Assembly (NCBI RefSeq): GCF_051622035.1
Contig: NC_135367.1
Coordinates: forward strand, 27,048,001-27,112,000
DNA length: 64,000 bases
Reading direction: 5' to 3'
Source: Arctopsyche grandis
Taxonomy: Eukaryota > Arthropoda > Insecta > Trichoptera > Hydropsychidae
Each line of letters begins with the position of its first letter. Within the stretch, counting starts at the first letter, position 1. The translations under genes and the position numbers were made by a program. The notes beneath the pieces were generated by a model that worked only from the letters and a program-made list of their open reading frames with translations, did not search any database and had not been told where the DNA came from. Positions 4,337-62,175 of this stretch are shown here, one piece after another.

Positions 4337-17885
<13,549 letters not shown>

Positions 17886-21842: not shown

Positions 21843-24800
21843 ATGAAGTCTTTTTTGGTATTCAATAACATCAACGATCTGGTGTTTTGGAAATGGGATC
21901 ACCTTTTCGTGAAGCACATCCTTCATCTTGCCAGAGGACAAGGATTGATCAAATCCACAGACCAGGTAGAAATAATAGTCATCGCCCTGAAGTACAATAT
22001 ATTGTTTCATATTATAAAACATAACATCTAAGAAATCTGAACTTTTCAGATTTCAGAAACGGACGCTGGCTTCAGCGGGGAACTGAATCCAGATATCGTG
22101 ATTCAAATATTTTCACCGATCATAACATCGCAGAGGATAATGAGTTGCCAATTTGGCAATTCATATTCTTCGGTTCAATGCCGAGATGATACCAATATAG
22201 TTTTTGATGAGGTACTAATTCATTCATATATATTTATATTAAAAAATAATTAAATCGTAATGTTTGTACACTTCTTATATACATATTTTAATGTATTTGT
22301 AGTATGTCGGATATTTATTCGTTCACATCAGCAAAAACAGCGTATGTTGGATGCAAAAGTCACTCGGAACTCTTATCACCATCGTTAAGTACTTCTGCGG
22401 TCCTGATGTTTCACTGTATGTTTCTAAACATTGTATACATATATTCTGCTTAGTATTTTCATACAAATATACACCGTCGGTAATTTTGTATTTAGATTAA
22501 AACAAGAAAGGCAAAGAGCCGGAGTGTTGATGGCTTTAAATTCCTGGCAACGCTTGATATTCCGAGATCAGGCTGCTCTCGTAGGTGCTTCAGAATCTCT
22601 ATCGACTGGCACCGAGTCAATGACAGCAACCTTGGCTGCTTTGAAAGCTGCTATCAATGCCTTACCACCACCCACAACACCGACACATGCAGCTATCTAT
22701 GTCAAAAATAAGCTTTTATCATTGTATTCGACGTAAGTTTTCAATTGGCAAAGGTTTAAACTGTTTTGTTTTATGTTTAAATACTAATTTTATATATTTT
22801 AGACGGGGAACAGAAGACTTAATTCCGGCAGATACTATGTTCTTCGGTGTGATGAGCGTCGGAGCTCAAGATAAATGGTCTCGGAAACCTCCCAGTGATT
22901 CTGAAAGCCGTTCTTCAAGTCCTGTAGAAGATGACTATGAGGAACAACCTTGTAATTAATCCTTTATCTATATACATATATGTGGTAGAGATTCCTGACA
23001 GATGACGCTGTTCAGGACCACGGTTGGGATGTGGTGGTTTAGGTGAAGATCAAAAACGTGCGTTTTCAGTCATGTTGTTTATAAAGACGATACGTGCGGA
23101 GGTTTAGCGACCGACCGCGCGGAGCACAGGTCCAACTGCGACTAACCGTTATATCTCTGCCCTTTTTCATCCCCTTCTCACAATCAGTCGTAACATACTC
23201 TTTCTCAGCCATAGCCCATACATCAGCCTTTCGTTCAATTCTAACCCTACATACATATATGAAGTATCGATAGATCATGTATTGTACATATTTGTGAACA
23301 ATTTTGACTGATAAGTATCCGATATCGTTCTCATCTATCTATATATGTATGTATATAAAAATGAATGTCTGTATTGTAAATTGTCTGTACTGTATGTCCA
23401 ACATTGTAAATTTTTAGTCATTAGTATTATTTATTACTTTCACTAACTAACAATATTAAAATGATTCTATTTAAGACGACGGTGAAAGCATCGGCCAGAC
23501 ATTATCCTGGACCGTTCTCATTGGTGGCACACCCTATGGATTGCATTTGCACCGACTGGCTCGCAATATAACCCTCGTCTTGGGCATCGGAATGAACGGA
23601 AACTCAGCTCAGCACGTCGTCACAGCTCTACATGCACTTTCAGCAATCACTCCAACGCTAACCCAGCGAGACCTAGACGCTTTGAAGCAGGCATTCTCTC
23701 CATTAGATGTGGCAATGAAAAAGGTAAACGAACGTTACAAAGAAATAAACCATTCAAATTATACAAGTTTCCAATTTTAGGCAATAGATAGTCTCAAGAA
23801 GTGCAAGAATCAGGCGGAGTCGCCGCAGCGGAAACTTCAGTCTCAATGGGACGTCATCAAGAAACGGCTATCAGACTTTCTGCGCGAAGGCACCGGCTCG
23901 TGGGCGTCTCTGGAAGCGTCCATATCTTCATTAGCCGTCGGACTTCGCACCGCTTTCCATCTGGCCTGCCGCGGTTTCTCTCCTCCAGATCTTGCCATTC
24001 AACCAGTAGCTTTGCAAGTGCACACGAAATTATCACCGCTCTATCAATTCTTGCGCGTGAAAGCGATGGGAAACTTCACACTCGGATCATATCCTTTCTA
24101 TAATCAGCCATAGCTCTGCTCTGGCTAAAATTCATATACATATGATAAATGTACTTTTGAATATTTATTTGTAATTTATACTAGGAAGGCTTGACAGGTA
24201 ACTCCAATGCACCTTCCTGGTCAGAAATATTTTACATTTGATACTATGTAGTATTATACTGGGTAAATACATATCAATTTGTAAATTTGCAGCATTTTAT
24301 ACAATTCAGTAAAATTCAAGATTGCTGAAAACTCGAGATTTTGCGAGAAAATTGGTGAGGTTGCCAATTTTTTGGAACCGTTTCAATGAAAATCAGATAA
24401 ATTGGCAAACTTTGATATGAAACGATCGACTTGAAGTCATAAATTCAAGGTCTAGCCAACAGAAACCAGTGGGATTCGAACCCGTGACCACTCTGTTCAA
24501 AGCATTAAATGCTAACCACTAGTCTATTCTGCTGGTTATCTATATATATAAAAATCAATGTTTGTCTGTCTGTCACGTATGCGTTCTTATACCATTCAAC
24601 CGATTGCGATGAAACTTACATGAGTTATTGTGTGCATGCCTGAGATGCATTCTGAAAAAAAAAAACGGAATCGGGAAAACAGGAATGAGTGGCATTGCAA
24701 CGTAATAATTTCAAATGTGTTCGCGTCGCCACTTGCGTTGTTAGGGTAAAATTAACAAAGCATTGAACAATTTCAAATGTATTGGCCGCCTGCGTTTTTC

Positions 24801-27405
24801 CAACAAATTATCATTACTGTAATTTTATTTGATTATTAAGTATTAATTTGAAACTGAAACATTCACTTCGAGAACGGGAATCACATGCGTTATTGTGGCA
24901 TTGCAACGCATGCCGGGTTCAGCTAGTTGTATATAAATTTGTTTCCTTAACTGTAAATTGTTATAAAACTCCGGTGATGAGCAGATACGTCGAAGAGTTT
25001 CCGGGGTTGGTTCACTTCCTGCATATAGATCGGTGCTATCATCGTCTCACAGCTCCGGCACTACCGCATTGCAGTGAAATGCTGTCAGCTTCGAAGGTTC
25101 TACTGATTATATATTTGATAGTTTGCTCGTCATACGACAGTTAATCCTTAAACATACATATATACTGTGAGACGGAACAACTACCATTGAATATATGTAC
25201 ATATTTTCAGATATGGGCCATGGTGGAAAAGTCAAGGTCGAACCTGCAAGAGGGTCACTTGTCAAGCATGTGGAAGGATGGAGCATTACACTACGCGCAT
25301 TTGGTGTGGTTCGAGGACTCGTCTGGAGGTCCGCTTAAGCCTCGACCCCTATCTGTGCAGGCATTGAGAGCTCTACCACCACCTAATACGTTACCGGAAG
25401 ACTATTATCTGTTAGTGCATATGTTACAGTCGAAGTGTATATTCAGTTGTACATAATATATTCCAACTGGCGTTTTAGGTCATTCATATTCGAATACAAT
25501 TCAACTAGTAAGTTATATCTCTACAAGCGCAAATATACTTTCAACAATGTGCGCCAGTTGTAATATAACAGCCGAGTTCTGACAGCTCTGATGTCTTTAC
25601 GAATGCTTTAGAATTCAATAATGCGTTAATATTTGCTAGATATTACGAATATCTAGCAAATGAGTATCGTATTACGATTACTCTAAAGGTCTGACCGCAC
25701 TATGCGTCAACCGAACGATGCGACCCGACACAACAGTGTGCGACAGTATTAGGTAAACCGCACTTGAACGACAGCGATGCGACCTACGTAGTAAATTACG
25801 TCAACCATTCGTTCGGTACCTCGGAGCAAAATGGACGAAACCAACGCTATTATAATATCTTTGATATGCGAGAGAGAAGAACAATCGAGAAAAACCAAAA
25901 GATTATGGCTACATGCTATTTCAAAGTCACGATATGAAGAAGGAGAATAATTGTCGCAAGGCAACCCCTACTCCACGACACCTTGCGTCAAAATTGGTCG
26001 GAAAGTTAACTTTGACGCACGGTGTCGTTCTACGTCATGCGACTATCGCGCAGTGCGTTATGTCTCATACAATTTCATACAAACAATATTTGGTCGCGTA
26101 CTGTTGTGAAGTGTCGGATCATTCGGTTGTCGCATAGTGCGTTCAGACCTTAAGAATGTGTTCAAAACAAAAATGCAGAGAAATGTTATAATAATAGAAG
26201 TGCCTTTACTAATAAATTGCTGTGTGTTAATAATACGCGGTACGTCTCCATACTACGCTACAACGCACGGAATACAATCAGGCTCATCACATATTCACTA
26301 CAGAAATTAAAGTTTTATTTTGATATAGATTTATTTACAATTTCGAATATATGGTGGTGATGGGCGTTGGTGGCCAATCCGTTTCTTTTCTCGGTTGGCT
26401 GCTGATTTTTATCCACTTTTTTGTATTTGTCTGTCCTTGGGAACTCTTAAATTAACGTGTAATGTATATTTTTAACAAAAATATGTATAATATAAAATGA
26501 ATGATGTTTATATTAATTAAACTTAAATAATCGGTTATTTATATAATTGAGTATTCGGCGCCACTAAGAGAAATGTTTTTACATTTATTTAAAAATAATT
26601 TTTACATTTCTCTGGTGCCACCCCTGAAATTTTATGTAGAATGCGGACGATCGCCATGACACTTTTAAAAACTGTCAAACTACGATGTTAATTGAATAAT
26701 ATGTTACTTGAATGATCATTTTACCTATAAAAATGTATCCCATGTTGTTTATTGTGTGTTTTTGAATGCATCGTGCAATTTTTAACGATGCACTTGCCCA
26801 TCTTGTGAGTAATATAAACAAATAGAGAAGTTTTTTATATCGGACATACGTCGAGCACCAAGCATCAAATACGACTGATGCTAAAATTATTTGAAAAGGT
26901 CTGTGGACATTCCTCACTTGACAACAATATGACGCCTAAAGCATTATTCTATTATTATAACATTTCTCTGGAAACATGTGACTTTCCAACTCAATTTATT
27001 AGTGACGTTTTCACGACAACTTAACCTCTCCATCTTACCTGGTACCAATTATTATAGTTGAACTGTATTTTCAGTTGTTATATATTTTGAACAGTTGGAA
27101 TGTAATTCCCAATATGAATCAACTTACGTGGGTTAGACGGAATATATTCCAATTAGTCAAAATATATTACAACTGGAAGATATTGGGATGTTATAAAATA
27201 GTAATGGGTCTTGATTGTATTGCTTTACGATTTCAGGAAGTTGACTGAGGCTAGTTTCCCTGGCAATTCTAGGAACATTCGTTGTCTGGAACTCTTCGCT
27301 GTGCACATCGGTCTACTACCTGCCGGTACTGCGTTGACTCATGCACGTCGATTGGCCGCTACTATTTGTGATATCAATGCACCTCATCCTGCAAATCTTC
27401 TGTAG
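21843..27405 (+). CDS. HPS1: HPS1, BLOC-3 complex subunit
   Basis: HPS1 pairs with HPS4 to form BLOC-3, the exchange factor for Rab32/38 in lysosome-related (pigment) organelle biogenesis (family knowledge). Exons: 21843-21965, 22050-22211, 22303-22415, 22496-22732, 22803-22951, 23476-23723, 23781-24088, 24970(or 24985)-25096, 25211-25410, 27237-27405, giving about 611 or 606 aa; human HPS1 is 700 aa. The N-terminus MKSFLVFNNINDLVFWKWD resembles the first longin-type strand of HPS1. The best match is YVEEFPGLVHFLHIDR, parallel to YLEDFPGLVHFIYVDR of vertebrate HPS1. The end RCLELFAVHIGLLPAGTA matches the conserved C-terminal RCYELLALHL region. All introns except the seventh are GT-AG; the seventh has U12-type AT-AC or AT-AG signals. 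The ATG at 21843 starts the recognisable N-terminus. It lies between two ABC transporter genes with no evident functional link. Confidence 0.92.
22982..23240. repeat. Dispersed repeat, copy 1 (HPS1 intron 5)
   Basis: Shares about 235 bp with 27948-28182, including ACAGATGACGCTGTTCAGGA and CGCGCGGAGCACAGGTCCA. Neither copy has a long ORF or clear termini. The two copies lie inside and just past HPS1 in the same orientation. Confidence 0.7.
24176..24538 (-). repeat. tRNA-headed SINE in the U12 intron of HPS1
   Basis: The minus strand reads CCAGCAGAATAGACTAGTGG (A-box-like), then GGGTTCGAATCCCAC (B box), and ends in the shared ...AAGGTGCATTGGAG...AAGCCTTCC tail. The head differs from the SINE at 15340 while the tail is the same. 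Confidence 0.7.
24539..24926 (+). mobile_element. Helitron (non-autonomous), in the U12 intron of HPS1
   Basis: 388 bp from TCTATATATATAAAAATC to GGGTTCAGCTAG, inserted between host A and T. The 5' part with TGTCTGTCTGT and CCATTCAACCGATTGCGATG is a widespread insect Helitron signature. A GCAACGCATGC hairpin-like segment precedes the CTAG end. A partial 5' end of a sister copy is at 23339-23400. Confidence 0.85.
25687..26150. mobile_element. Harbinger-like MITE, CCGCACTATGCG family
   Basis: Ends AGGTCTGACCGCACTATGCG and CGCATAGTGCGTTCAGACCT, flanked by TAA on both sides (25684-25686, 26151-26153). 464 bp, no transposase. Intron 9 of HPS1. Confidence 0.88.
26176..26970. mobile_element. hAT-type element, CAGAGAAATG family, copy 2
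   Basis: Ends CAGAGAAATGTTATAATAAT and ATTATTATAACATTTCTCTG. Flanks CAAAAATG and GAAACATG agree at 6 of 8 positions. It is 795 bp against 359 bp for the copy at 14025 and contains an extra internal hairpin. Intron 9 of HPS1. Confidence 0.8.
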
Positions 27406-27731: not shown

Positions 27732-27947
27732 TAATGTATGTATAATATCTTAGAAGAACATTCCATTTTATATATAAATCATGTTGGCTGACATTTTGTT
27801 GACTGGCATATTTTGTAAAGTGCAATTTTTTGTACAACCATTATCTTCTATTCAAATTATATGCGATAACATATGTATATCAGAGAAAAAAAGATTTTTC
27901 GTTAAAAGATAACAATTTATTAATTTAACATGTACATATGTATGTAT

Positions 27948-28182
27948 GTGGTAGAGAATCCTGACAGATGACGCTGTTCAGGACCACGGTTGGGATGTGA
28001 CGGTTTAGGTGAAGACCAAACACCTCATGTTGTTTATTAAGTTGAAACGTGCGGAGGTTTAGCGACCAACCGCGCGGAGCACAGGTCCACCTGCGACTAA
28101 CCATTACATCTCTACCCCTTTTCATCCCCTTCTCACAATCAGTCGTAACATACCCTTTTTCAGCCATAGCCCATACATCAAC
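27948..28182. repeat. Dispersed repeat, copy 2
   Basis: Second copy of the repeat at 22982-23240, starting at GTGGTAGAGAATCCTGACAG. It lies about 540 bp past the HPS1 stop codon. Confidence 0.7.
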
Positions 28183-28226
28183 CTTTGTTTATGAAAATGG
28201 TTGGTATTTAACTGACCGATTTTTAA

Positions 28227-29804: not shown

Positions 29805-30203
29805 ACAGGTAAACCCCAATGCGCCTTCCCAGACAATTACAAACATTGCAGCATTTTTTATTAAATAACTCGCTGTATTTTAAGAGGCTGAAAAACACGA
29901 AATTAACAATGAATGAATAAATTAATTAATCCATAGAGACATCTATGGATTTAGACTTGTACATACATTTTTACATATTGTACATAAATCAAATTCAGAT
30001 ATTTGTGACATAGTGGGTAGGATGGTTTTTGCCAATTAGATAGAGGAACCGTTTCAACAATGAAATCAGATAAATTGGCAAACGATTGACTTAGTCACAA
30101 ATATCCAAGTCTGATCAGCAGTTTTAAATATTAGCATGAGATCGAACCTGGTATCCTCTCGGTGCTAAACATAAACGCAACCACTGAGCCATATTGCTGG
30201 CTA
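29805..30203 (-). repeat. tRNA-headed SINE
   Basis: The minus strand reads AGCCAGCAATATGGCTCAGT, a B-box-like GGTTCGATCTC and the shared AAGGCGCATTGGGG tail. Intergenic between HPS1 and transporter B. Confidence 0.65.
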
Positions 30204-30520: not shown

Positions 30521-31108
30521 TGGGTCTACGTGACGAGACAGAATGTTAAATTACAGAAAACACAAATATCGGAAGGCAAAGATCGAAAATCAAAAGATCT
30601 TAAGTCGAAAGATCAAAAAAATATGGTGCAGGGTAAACGGTTCCTATTTACTTAATTTGCGCGAGCAGGATACAACATGAACAAGAGGAACAGGCTTTTC
30701 CTCCCATATTAACGTGCGCGCGCAGAATACGGGAGGGAAAGCATGTTCCTCTTGTTCCTGTTGTATCCTGCTCGCGCAAATTAAATGAGTATGTACCGTT
30801 GTAGTATGTACATGTATGGTGCATGGTTAACGGTACATACTCATTTAATTTGCGCGAGCAGGATACAACAGGAACAAGAGGAACATGCTTTTCCTCCCGT
30901 ATTCTGCGCGCGCACGTTAATATGGGAGGAAAAGCCTGTTCCTCTTGTTCATGTTGTATCCTGCTCGCGCAAATTAAGTAAATAGGAACCGTTTACCCTG
31001 CACCATTTTTTTTTGATCTTTCGACTTAAGATCTTTCGATTTTCGATCTTTGCCTTCCGATATTTGCGTTTTCTGTAATTTAACATTCTGTCTCGTCACG
31101 GAGACCGG
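30521..31108. repeat. 588-bp palindrome made of smaller palindromes
   Basis: The left arm from about 30521 (GTGACGAGACAGAATGTTAA) is matched by the right arm ending about 31106. Each arm contains its own inverted repeat, from TTTGCGCGAGCAGGATACAA to TTGTATCCTGCTCGCGCAAA with GTGCGCGCGCAGAATACG at its core. The central spacer is near 30800-30830. The arms look almost identical. Related single-arm sequence lies at 63085-63330. It is 430 bp upstream of the transporter B start codon. Confidence 0.88.
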
Positions 31109-31539: not shown

Positions 31540-45902
<14,363 letters not shown>

Positions 45903-48331: not shown

Positions 48332-60775
<12,444 letters not shown>

Positions 60776-61769: not shown

Positions 61770-62175
61770 TACATAGATATAAACCAAGAAGGCTTGACAG
61801 GAAGACCCCAATGCGCCTTCCTAAACAATTAATTACAAGCATTGCAGCATTTTTACTACATAAGTCGCTGTATTTCAAGAACACGAAATTAACAATTAAT
61901 TAATCTATAGAGACATCTATGGATTTAGACTTGTACATAAATTTTTACATATTGTACATAAATCAAATTCAGATATGTGACATAGCGGGTAGAACGGTTT
62001 TTGCCAATTTGATGGAGGAACCATTTCAACAATGAAATCAGAAAAATTGACAAACACTGATGAGAAACGATCGACTTGGAGTCACATATATCCAAGTCTG
62101 ACCAGCAGCATTAACGATTAGCACGGAATCAAACCCGGTAACCTCTCGGTGCTAAACATAAACGCAACTGCAGGT
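61770..62175 (-). repeat. tRNA-headed SINE
   Basis: Tail GACCCCAATGCGCCTTCC at the left, then the body words TTGCCAATTTGATGGAGG and GAAACGATCGACTTGGAGTC. The head near 62120-62170 is mutated (AATCAAACCCGG). Confidence 0.6.

Follow-up and report, generated by a model that had tools for sequence, protein, structure and literature searches.

A U12-type, probably AT-AC, intron in the HPS1 gene of Arctopsyche grandis and its in-frame candidate acceptor sites

Minor introns and mammalian HPS1

For the mouse homologue of the human HPS gene, an AT-AC intron is reported by Feng et al. (1997; cited in PMC9526055). In human HPS1, the variant NM_000195.5:c.1599-16T>G is placed on the acceptor side of exon 17, and in a minigene it led to skipping of that exon, an outcome predicted by no software according to the same report (PMC11355033). 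The naming of this variant therefore puts human intron 16 at c.1598/c.1599, in phase 2 within codon 533. We strongly infer that intron 16 is the mammalian AT-AC intron. A U12-type branch site near c.1599-16 would explain both the skipping of exon 17 and the failed predictions, as a fit to the published observations and not a proof.

In U12-type introns the acceptor lies 10–20 nt from the branch site, with 11–13 nt being optimal (PMC8199999). The same 11–13 nt optimum has been given for minor introns in a second source, in which the AT-AG and GT-AC pairs are disfavoured (PMC3584512).

The intron analysed here belongs to the HPS1 gene of Arctopsyche grandis (Trichoptera: Hydropsychidae) and lies in a window of 64,000 nt, which is the whole stretch of DNA that was analysed (NC_135367.1, positions 27,048,001–27,112,000 of the forward strand; all coordinates below are those of the window). 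In the alignment of the junction, human NITMVS-YLEDF corresponds to NFTLGS-YVEEF, and the split Ser is human S533. The intron cuts this Ser codon after its second base (phase 2). Codon and phase are the same as those deduced for human HPS1 intron 16, human being the only relative compared. The preliminary description had put a human AT-AC intron at about this place, had considered from this that the intron may be ancient, and had suggested aligning the junction with vertebrate HPS1; as far as codon and phase go (S533, c.1598/c.1599), the comparison with human HPS1 supports it.

The gene and its exceptional intron

The HPS1 gene model comprises ten coding exons.

21843–27405, + strand: HPS1, from start codon to stop (open frame, Pfam, PDB match)
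21843–21965, 22050–22211, 22303–22415, 22496–22732, 22803–22951, + strand: HPS1 exons 1–5
23476–23723, 23781–24088, 24970–25096, 25211–25410, 27237–27405, + strand: HPS1 exons 6–10
23781–24088, + strand: HPS1 exon 7, with a phase 2 end inside the Ser codon aligned with human S533
24970–25096, + strand: HPS1 exon 8, which would start at 24985 if the CAG were used

The open frame is 611 aa long with the AC acceptor and 606 aa long with the CAG acceptor. The first (Fuz_longin_1, E 2.5e-20) and third (Fuz_longin_3, E 1.3e-13) longin domains were found above the Pfam cut-offs, while the second scored 17.6 bits against a cut-off of 23.8 bits. The sole PDB match of the protein is human HPS1 (8zwc_A, E 3.1e-22). 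Together, the longin domains, which are those of the FUZ/MON1/HPS1 group, and the human match support the assignment of the gene at 21843–27405 as an HPS1 orthologue, the identity given to it in the preliminary description.

The donor of exon 8 (GTTCTACTG, in the region 25080–25210) looks weak, and about 12 residues before the KVW motif of human HPS1 are missing from exon 8 here. Several exon-sized ORFs flank the gene at 4337–14057 and 34148–58705; by eye these are ABC transporter-like (ABCC/MRP) and perhaps represent a gene cluster.

Eight of the nine introns are GT-AG, and the exception is the one that follows exon 7.

24089–24969, + strand: U12-type AT-AC intron as proposed, 881 nt (motifs, frames, join scores)
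24089–24096, + strand: U12-type donor ATATCCTT, an exact match to RTATCCTT at the first intron base
24943–24951, + strand: U12-type branch site TTCCTTAAC, an exact match, with the branch A at 24949 or 24950

Taken singly, neither word is rare, and the counts are close to those of shuffled sequence. The donor 8-mer occurs five times on both strands of the window (3.88 expected from shuffles) and the branch 9-mer twice (0.77 expected). The joint chance of donor and branch site at one fixed junction is about 7e-9, the product of 3.88/128000 (donor position) and 0.77/128000 × 40 (branch region). A scan of both strands for exact motifs returned seven [AG]TATCCTT donors and five TTCCTTRAY branch sites. 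Only one exact donor–branch pair lies 50–5000 nt apart on one strand of the window, and it is the pair of the HPS1 intron; for the second copy of the branch 9-mer, at 56418, the 5 kb upstream contain no exact donor. Both motifs had been claimed to match the minor-spliceosome consensus exactly, which holds.

An exact donor, an exact branch site and an AC within the 10–20 nt distance range, all features of the U12 type, are found together in this intron. This combination supports its assignment (24089–24969) as a genuine U12-type intron, which would presumably be spliced by the minor spliceosome (U11/U12/U4atac/U6atac). Rfam at gathering cut-offs reported no family in the 64-kb window, and the RNA fold near the acceptor is unremarkable (z −0.52). 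A scan for bacterial-type promoters and terminators over 24500–24990 gave nothing and has no bearing on the splicing question.

Translation continued past exon 7 ends at a stop at 24111, and upstream of exon 8 its frame is closed by a stop at 24830. GT-AG and GC-AG joins across the junction were enumerated with the first donor base at 24001–24104 and acceptors up to 25010, and those in frame and open were kept and scored by alignment to a human HPS1 fragment; the enumeration covered joins made directly from exon 7 to exon 8. Six in-frame GT-AG joins (top score 79) and 19 in-frame GC-AG joins (top score 83) were obtained, of which the best five of each kind were inspected. With the donor at 24089 the scores were 108 for the CAG, 97 for the GAG, 93 for the AC and 92 for the AA at 24965–24966. 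A simple GT-AG or GC-AG join, which would destroy the conserved block, is practically excluded by the gap between 79 or 83 and 93–108.

A wider list, to which AT-AA, AT-AT and GT-AC ends were added, held 56 in-frame joins, and the best 30 of the 56 were inspected. In this list an AT-AT join, 24091–24986, encodes the same protein as the CAG join and therefore has an equal score, 103. A join of donor 24086 with the GAG scored 98 in the wider list and 103 in the GT-AG/GC-AG comparison. Neither join starts with the U12 donor motif, and both were rejected.

The intron contains two insertions, and the donor, branch site and acceptors are untouched by both. The first is an interspersed repeat at 24174–24533, in which a tRNA-like stretch was noticed by eye on the minus strand; ARAGORN reported no tRNA in the 64-kb window. 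Partial copies of this repeat are found within 15451–15779, 30045–30083, 39777–40323, 58914–59350 and 61777–62108. The second, picked out by eye at 24539–24926, extends to 16 nt short of the branch site and is presumably Helitron-like, going by its ends (TC...CTAG between A and T, with GGCAT/ATGCC arms near the 3′ end). No other copy of it was found in the window at E 1e-3. Outside the intron, 22970–23231 (HPS1 intron 5) and 27936–28186 (downstream of the gene) form a repeat pair of 91–92 % identity, and a near-perfect inverted repeat is located at 30523–31106, with arms of 278 nt that are 98 % complementary and 28 nt apart.

Choice of the acceptor

Three acceptors at the end of the intron have to be weighed, together with the 15 nt that separate the first from the last.

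24968–24969, + strand: AC, the favoured acceptor, 19–20 nt from the branch A and in frame
24970–24984, + strand: 15 nt encoding PVMSR, a proposed exon lengthening (GC 0.60; coding log-odds 3.06 over 24971–24982)
24980–24981, + strand: in-frame AG (GAG), which adds one Arg, branch +31
24983–24984, + strand: in-frame AG (CAG), gapless against human HPS1, branch +34

Distances written with a plus sign, from +7 to +34, take the second of the two possible branch A positions, 24950, as their origin; on this count the AC ends at +19. Further in-frame ends are an AA at 24956–24957 (+7), an AA at 24965–24966 (+16) and an AT at 24977–24978 (+28). The protein at the junction reads LGS-PVMSR-YVEEF with the AC and LGS-YVEEF with the CAG. 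The AC form has a five-residue gap against human HPS1, located exactly at the junction (score 93 vs 108).

The preliminary description had listed one AC and one AG, the first adding PVMSR and the second giving a gapless match. Translations and alignment agree on both, including that they keep the frame; the list itself was incomplete, as the GAG is also in frame and had been missed. It had further placed the AC at the usual distance from the branch site. This is correct for the 10–20 nt range, but 19–20 nt is the upper end of that range and not the 11–13 nt optimum. Its remark that the AG is unusually far from the branch site is borne out: the branch A is 31–32 nt from the GAG and 34–35 nt from the CAG, both beyond 10–20 nt, and the CAG is about 14 nt past the published range.

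The composition shifts at the AC rather than at the AG. The GC content of 24970–24984 is 0.60, against 0.07–0.40 in the last 15 nt of the eight other HPS1 introns, and the 18 nt between the branch site and the AC have a GC content of 0.17. GC by itself is the weaker measure, since 8.5 % of intronic 15-mers are as rich as 0.60. A coding log-odds score was considered as well, with codon frequencies from the other codons of the gene (the 15 nt left out) and the introns of the gene as background. The four full codons CCG GTG ATG AGC score 3.06 log units towards coding. Among 3345 overlapping intronic 12-mers, 0.42 % score at least as high, and the value exceeds that of 90.7 % of 571 in-frame exonic 12-mers. 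Because only 12–15 nt and overlapping windows are involved, this exon-likeness is support and not proof.

The AC at 24968–24969 is most likely the acceptor used, because AC normally pairs with an AT donor, the site lies inside the distance range and the 15 nt that follow it are exon-like. It is held with good, though not full, confidence that this is an ancient U12-type AT-AC intron in which the AC is joined and PVMSR is a 15-nt in-frame lengthening of the exon. The U11 and U12 snRNPs together would recognise ATATCCTT and TTCCTTAAC, the branch A would attack the donor at 24089, and the AC at 24968–24969, which is canonical for this donor and no more than about 20 nt from the branch, would serve as the acceptor. 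The splice site would then be unshifted, and PVMSR would be an exon gain in the linker that precedes the third longin domain. These would be residues 448–452, and the third longin match in Pfam starts at residue 459, six residues on; an insertion is likely to be tolerated in this linker. The earlier suggestion that the acceptor is drifting from AC to AG, or that both are in use, is not the preferred reading, as neither is needed when the AC is normal and in range and the next 15 nt look like exon.

Use of more than one acceptor is nevertheless the alternative that survives best, and is rated as a minor possibility. Splicing would be mostly to the AC, with a real share to the CAG (or GAG), giving two or three HPS1 forms that differ by PVMSR or by one Arg. 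The AC, GAG and CAG are all in frame; minor introns of mouse and human are reported often to take cryptic or alternative 3′ sites (PMC6717393), and 76 % of non-canonical U2/U12-like sites were alternatively spliced in one human survey (PMC4176328). However, the AGs are 31–35 nt from the branch site, beyond 10–20 nt, and AT-AG is a disfavoured pair. Three in-frame sites are also weak evidence, each being in frame by chance with a probability of 1/3. A graded series, from the AC to a GAGCAG tandem, that yields two or three BLOC-3 forms and has an AG reached 34 nt past the branch is likewise doubtful.

That the CAG at 24983–24984 is the sole acceptor is improbable. The ancestral AC would have turned into AG in place, leaving an AT-AG minor intron with a distant branch site. 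AT-AG minor introns exist (PMC4176328), the CAG join scores best among those with the donor at 24089 (108, gapless against human HPS1), and its boundary is the same as that deduced for human exon 17. Yet a gain of five codons at the edge of the exon would lead one to expect the gapless match equally, because omitting them restores the old alignment whatever dinucleotide ends the insert. The CAG also lies at 34–35 nt, an in-range canonical AC would have to be skipped, and 24970–24984 would have to be intronic in spite of being exon-like. Additionally, an acceptor that had always been there would have stood too far from the perfect branch site.

An intron ending in the AA at 24965–24966, at +16, would be an AT-AA minor intron that adds TPVMSR. 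This end keeps the frame and its distance from the branch is more favourable than that of the AC; among the non-canonical minor pairs of animals, AT-AA is reported to be the most frequent (PMC10639083). The canonical AC nevertheless stands three bases downstream, the alignment is no better (92 vs 93), and orthologous non-canonical minor introns amount to about 3.8 % in animals in the same report; this end is considered very unlikely. Coincidental U12 motifs that mask a GT-AG intron or an unseen extra exon are hardly credible, for although each motif by itself occurs at about the frequency seen in shuffles, the joint chance is about 7e-9, simple GT-AG and GC-AG joins break the conserved block, and codon and phase match human intron 16.

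Age of the intron and comparison with known systems

The shared codon and phase suggest that the HPS1 minor intron is probably ancestral, inherited from a common ancestor with vertebrates. Lin et al. (2010) list 19 U12-type introns of Drosophila melanogaster in their Table 2, and HPS1 is absent from it; therefore, going by that table, the D. melanogaster lineage probably lost or converted the intron. A search for HPS1 relatives, built on an alignment of this protein with the human fragment, gave 142 patterned stretches in one collection (viral_contigs) and 79 in another (genome_contigs), neither of which covers animal genomes, and tblastn confirmed none of them. Among the papers listed by a literature search, none was on a minor intron in insect HPS1 by its title.

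The locus supports an HPS1 AT-AC intron that predates the split of the lineage of A. grandis from vertebrates. The junction may also serve as a natural test of how the minor spliceosome measures from branch site to acceptor, with an AC at 19–20 nt set against in-frame AGs at 31 nt and 34 nt; whichever acceptor is taken, the protein stays readable. Annotation programs that allow GT-AG ends only, or that use protein homology alone, would probably misannotate the junction.

Compared with the mammalian HPS1 AT-AC intron, taken as human intron 16, the gene, the Ser533-equivalent codon and phase 2 are alike. The two were compared by position, and the differences here are the 15 extra exon nt and the two in-frame AGs. 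Like U12-type AT-AC introns generally, the intron has exact donor and branch consensus, an AC within 10–20 nt and no pyrimidine-rich stretch just before the AC; it differs from them in a branch–acceptor distance at the long end and in its two repeat insertions. With non-canonical minor introns (AT-AG, AT-AA) it shares an AG and an AA that follow the branch site in frame, but a canonical AC is in range, so a non-canonical end is unneeded. The HPS1 intron of A. grandis is most likely one more example of the known U12-type AT-AC introns and not a novel type of splice site.
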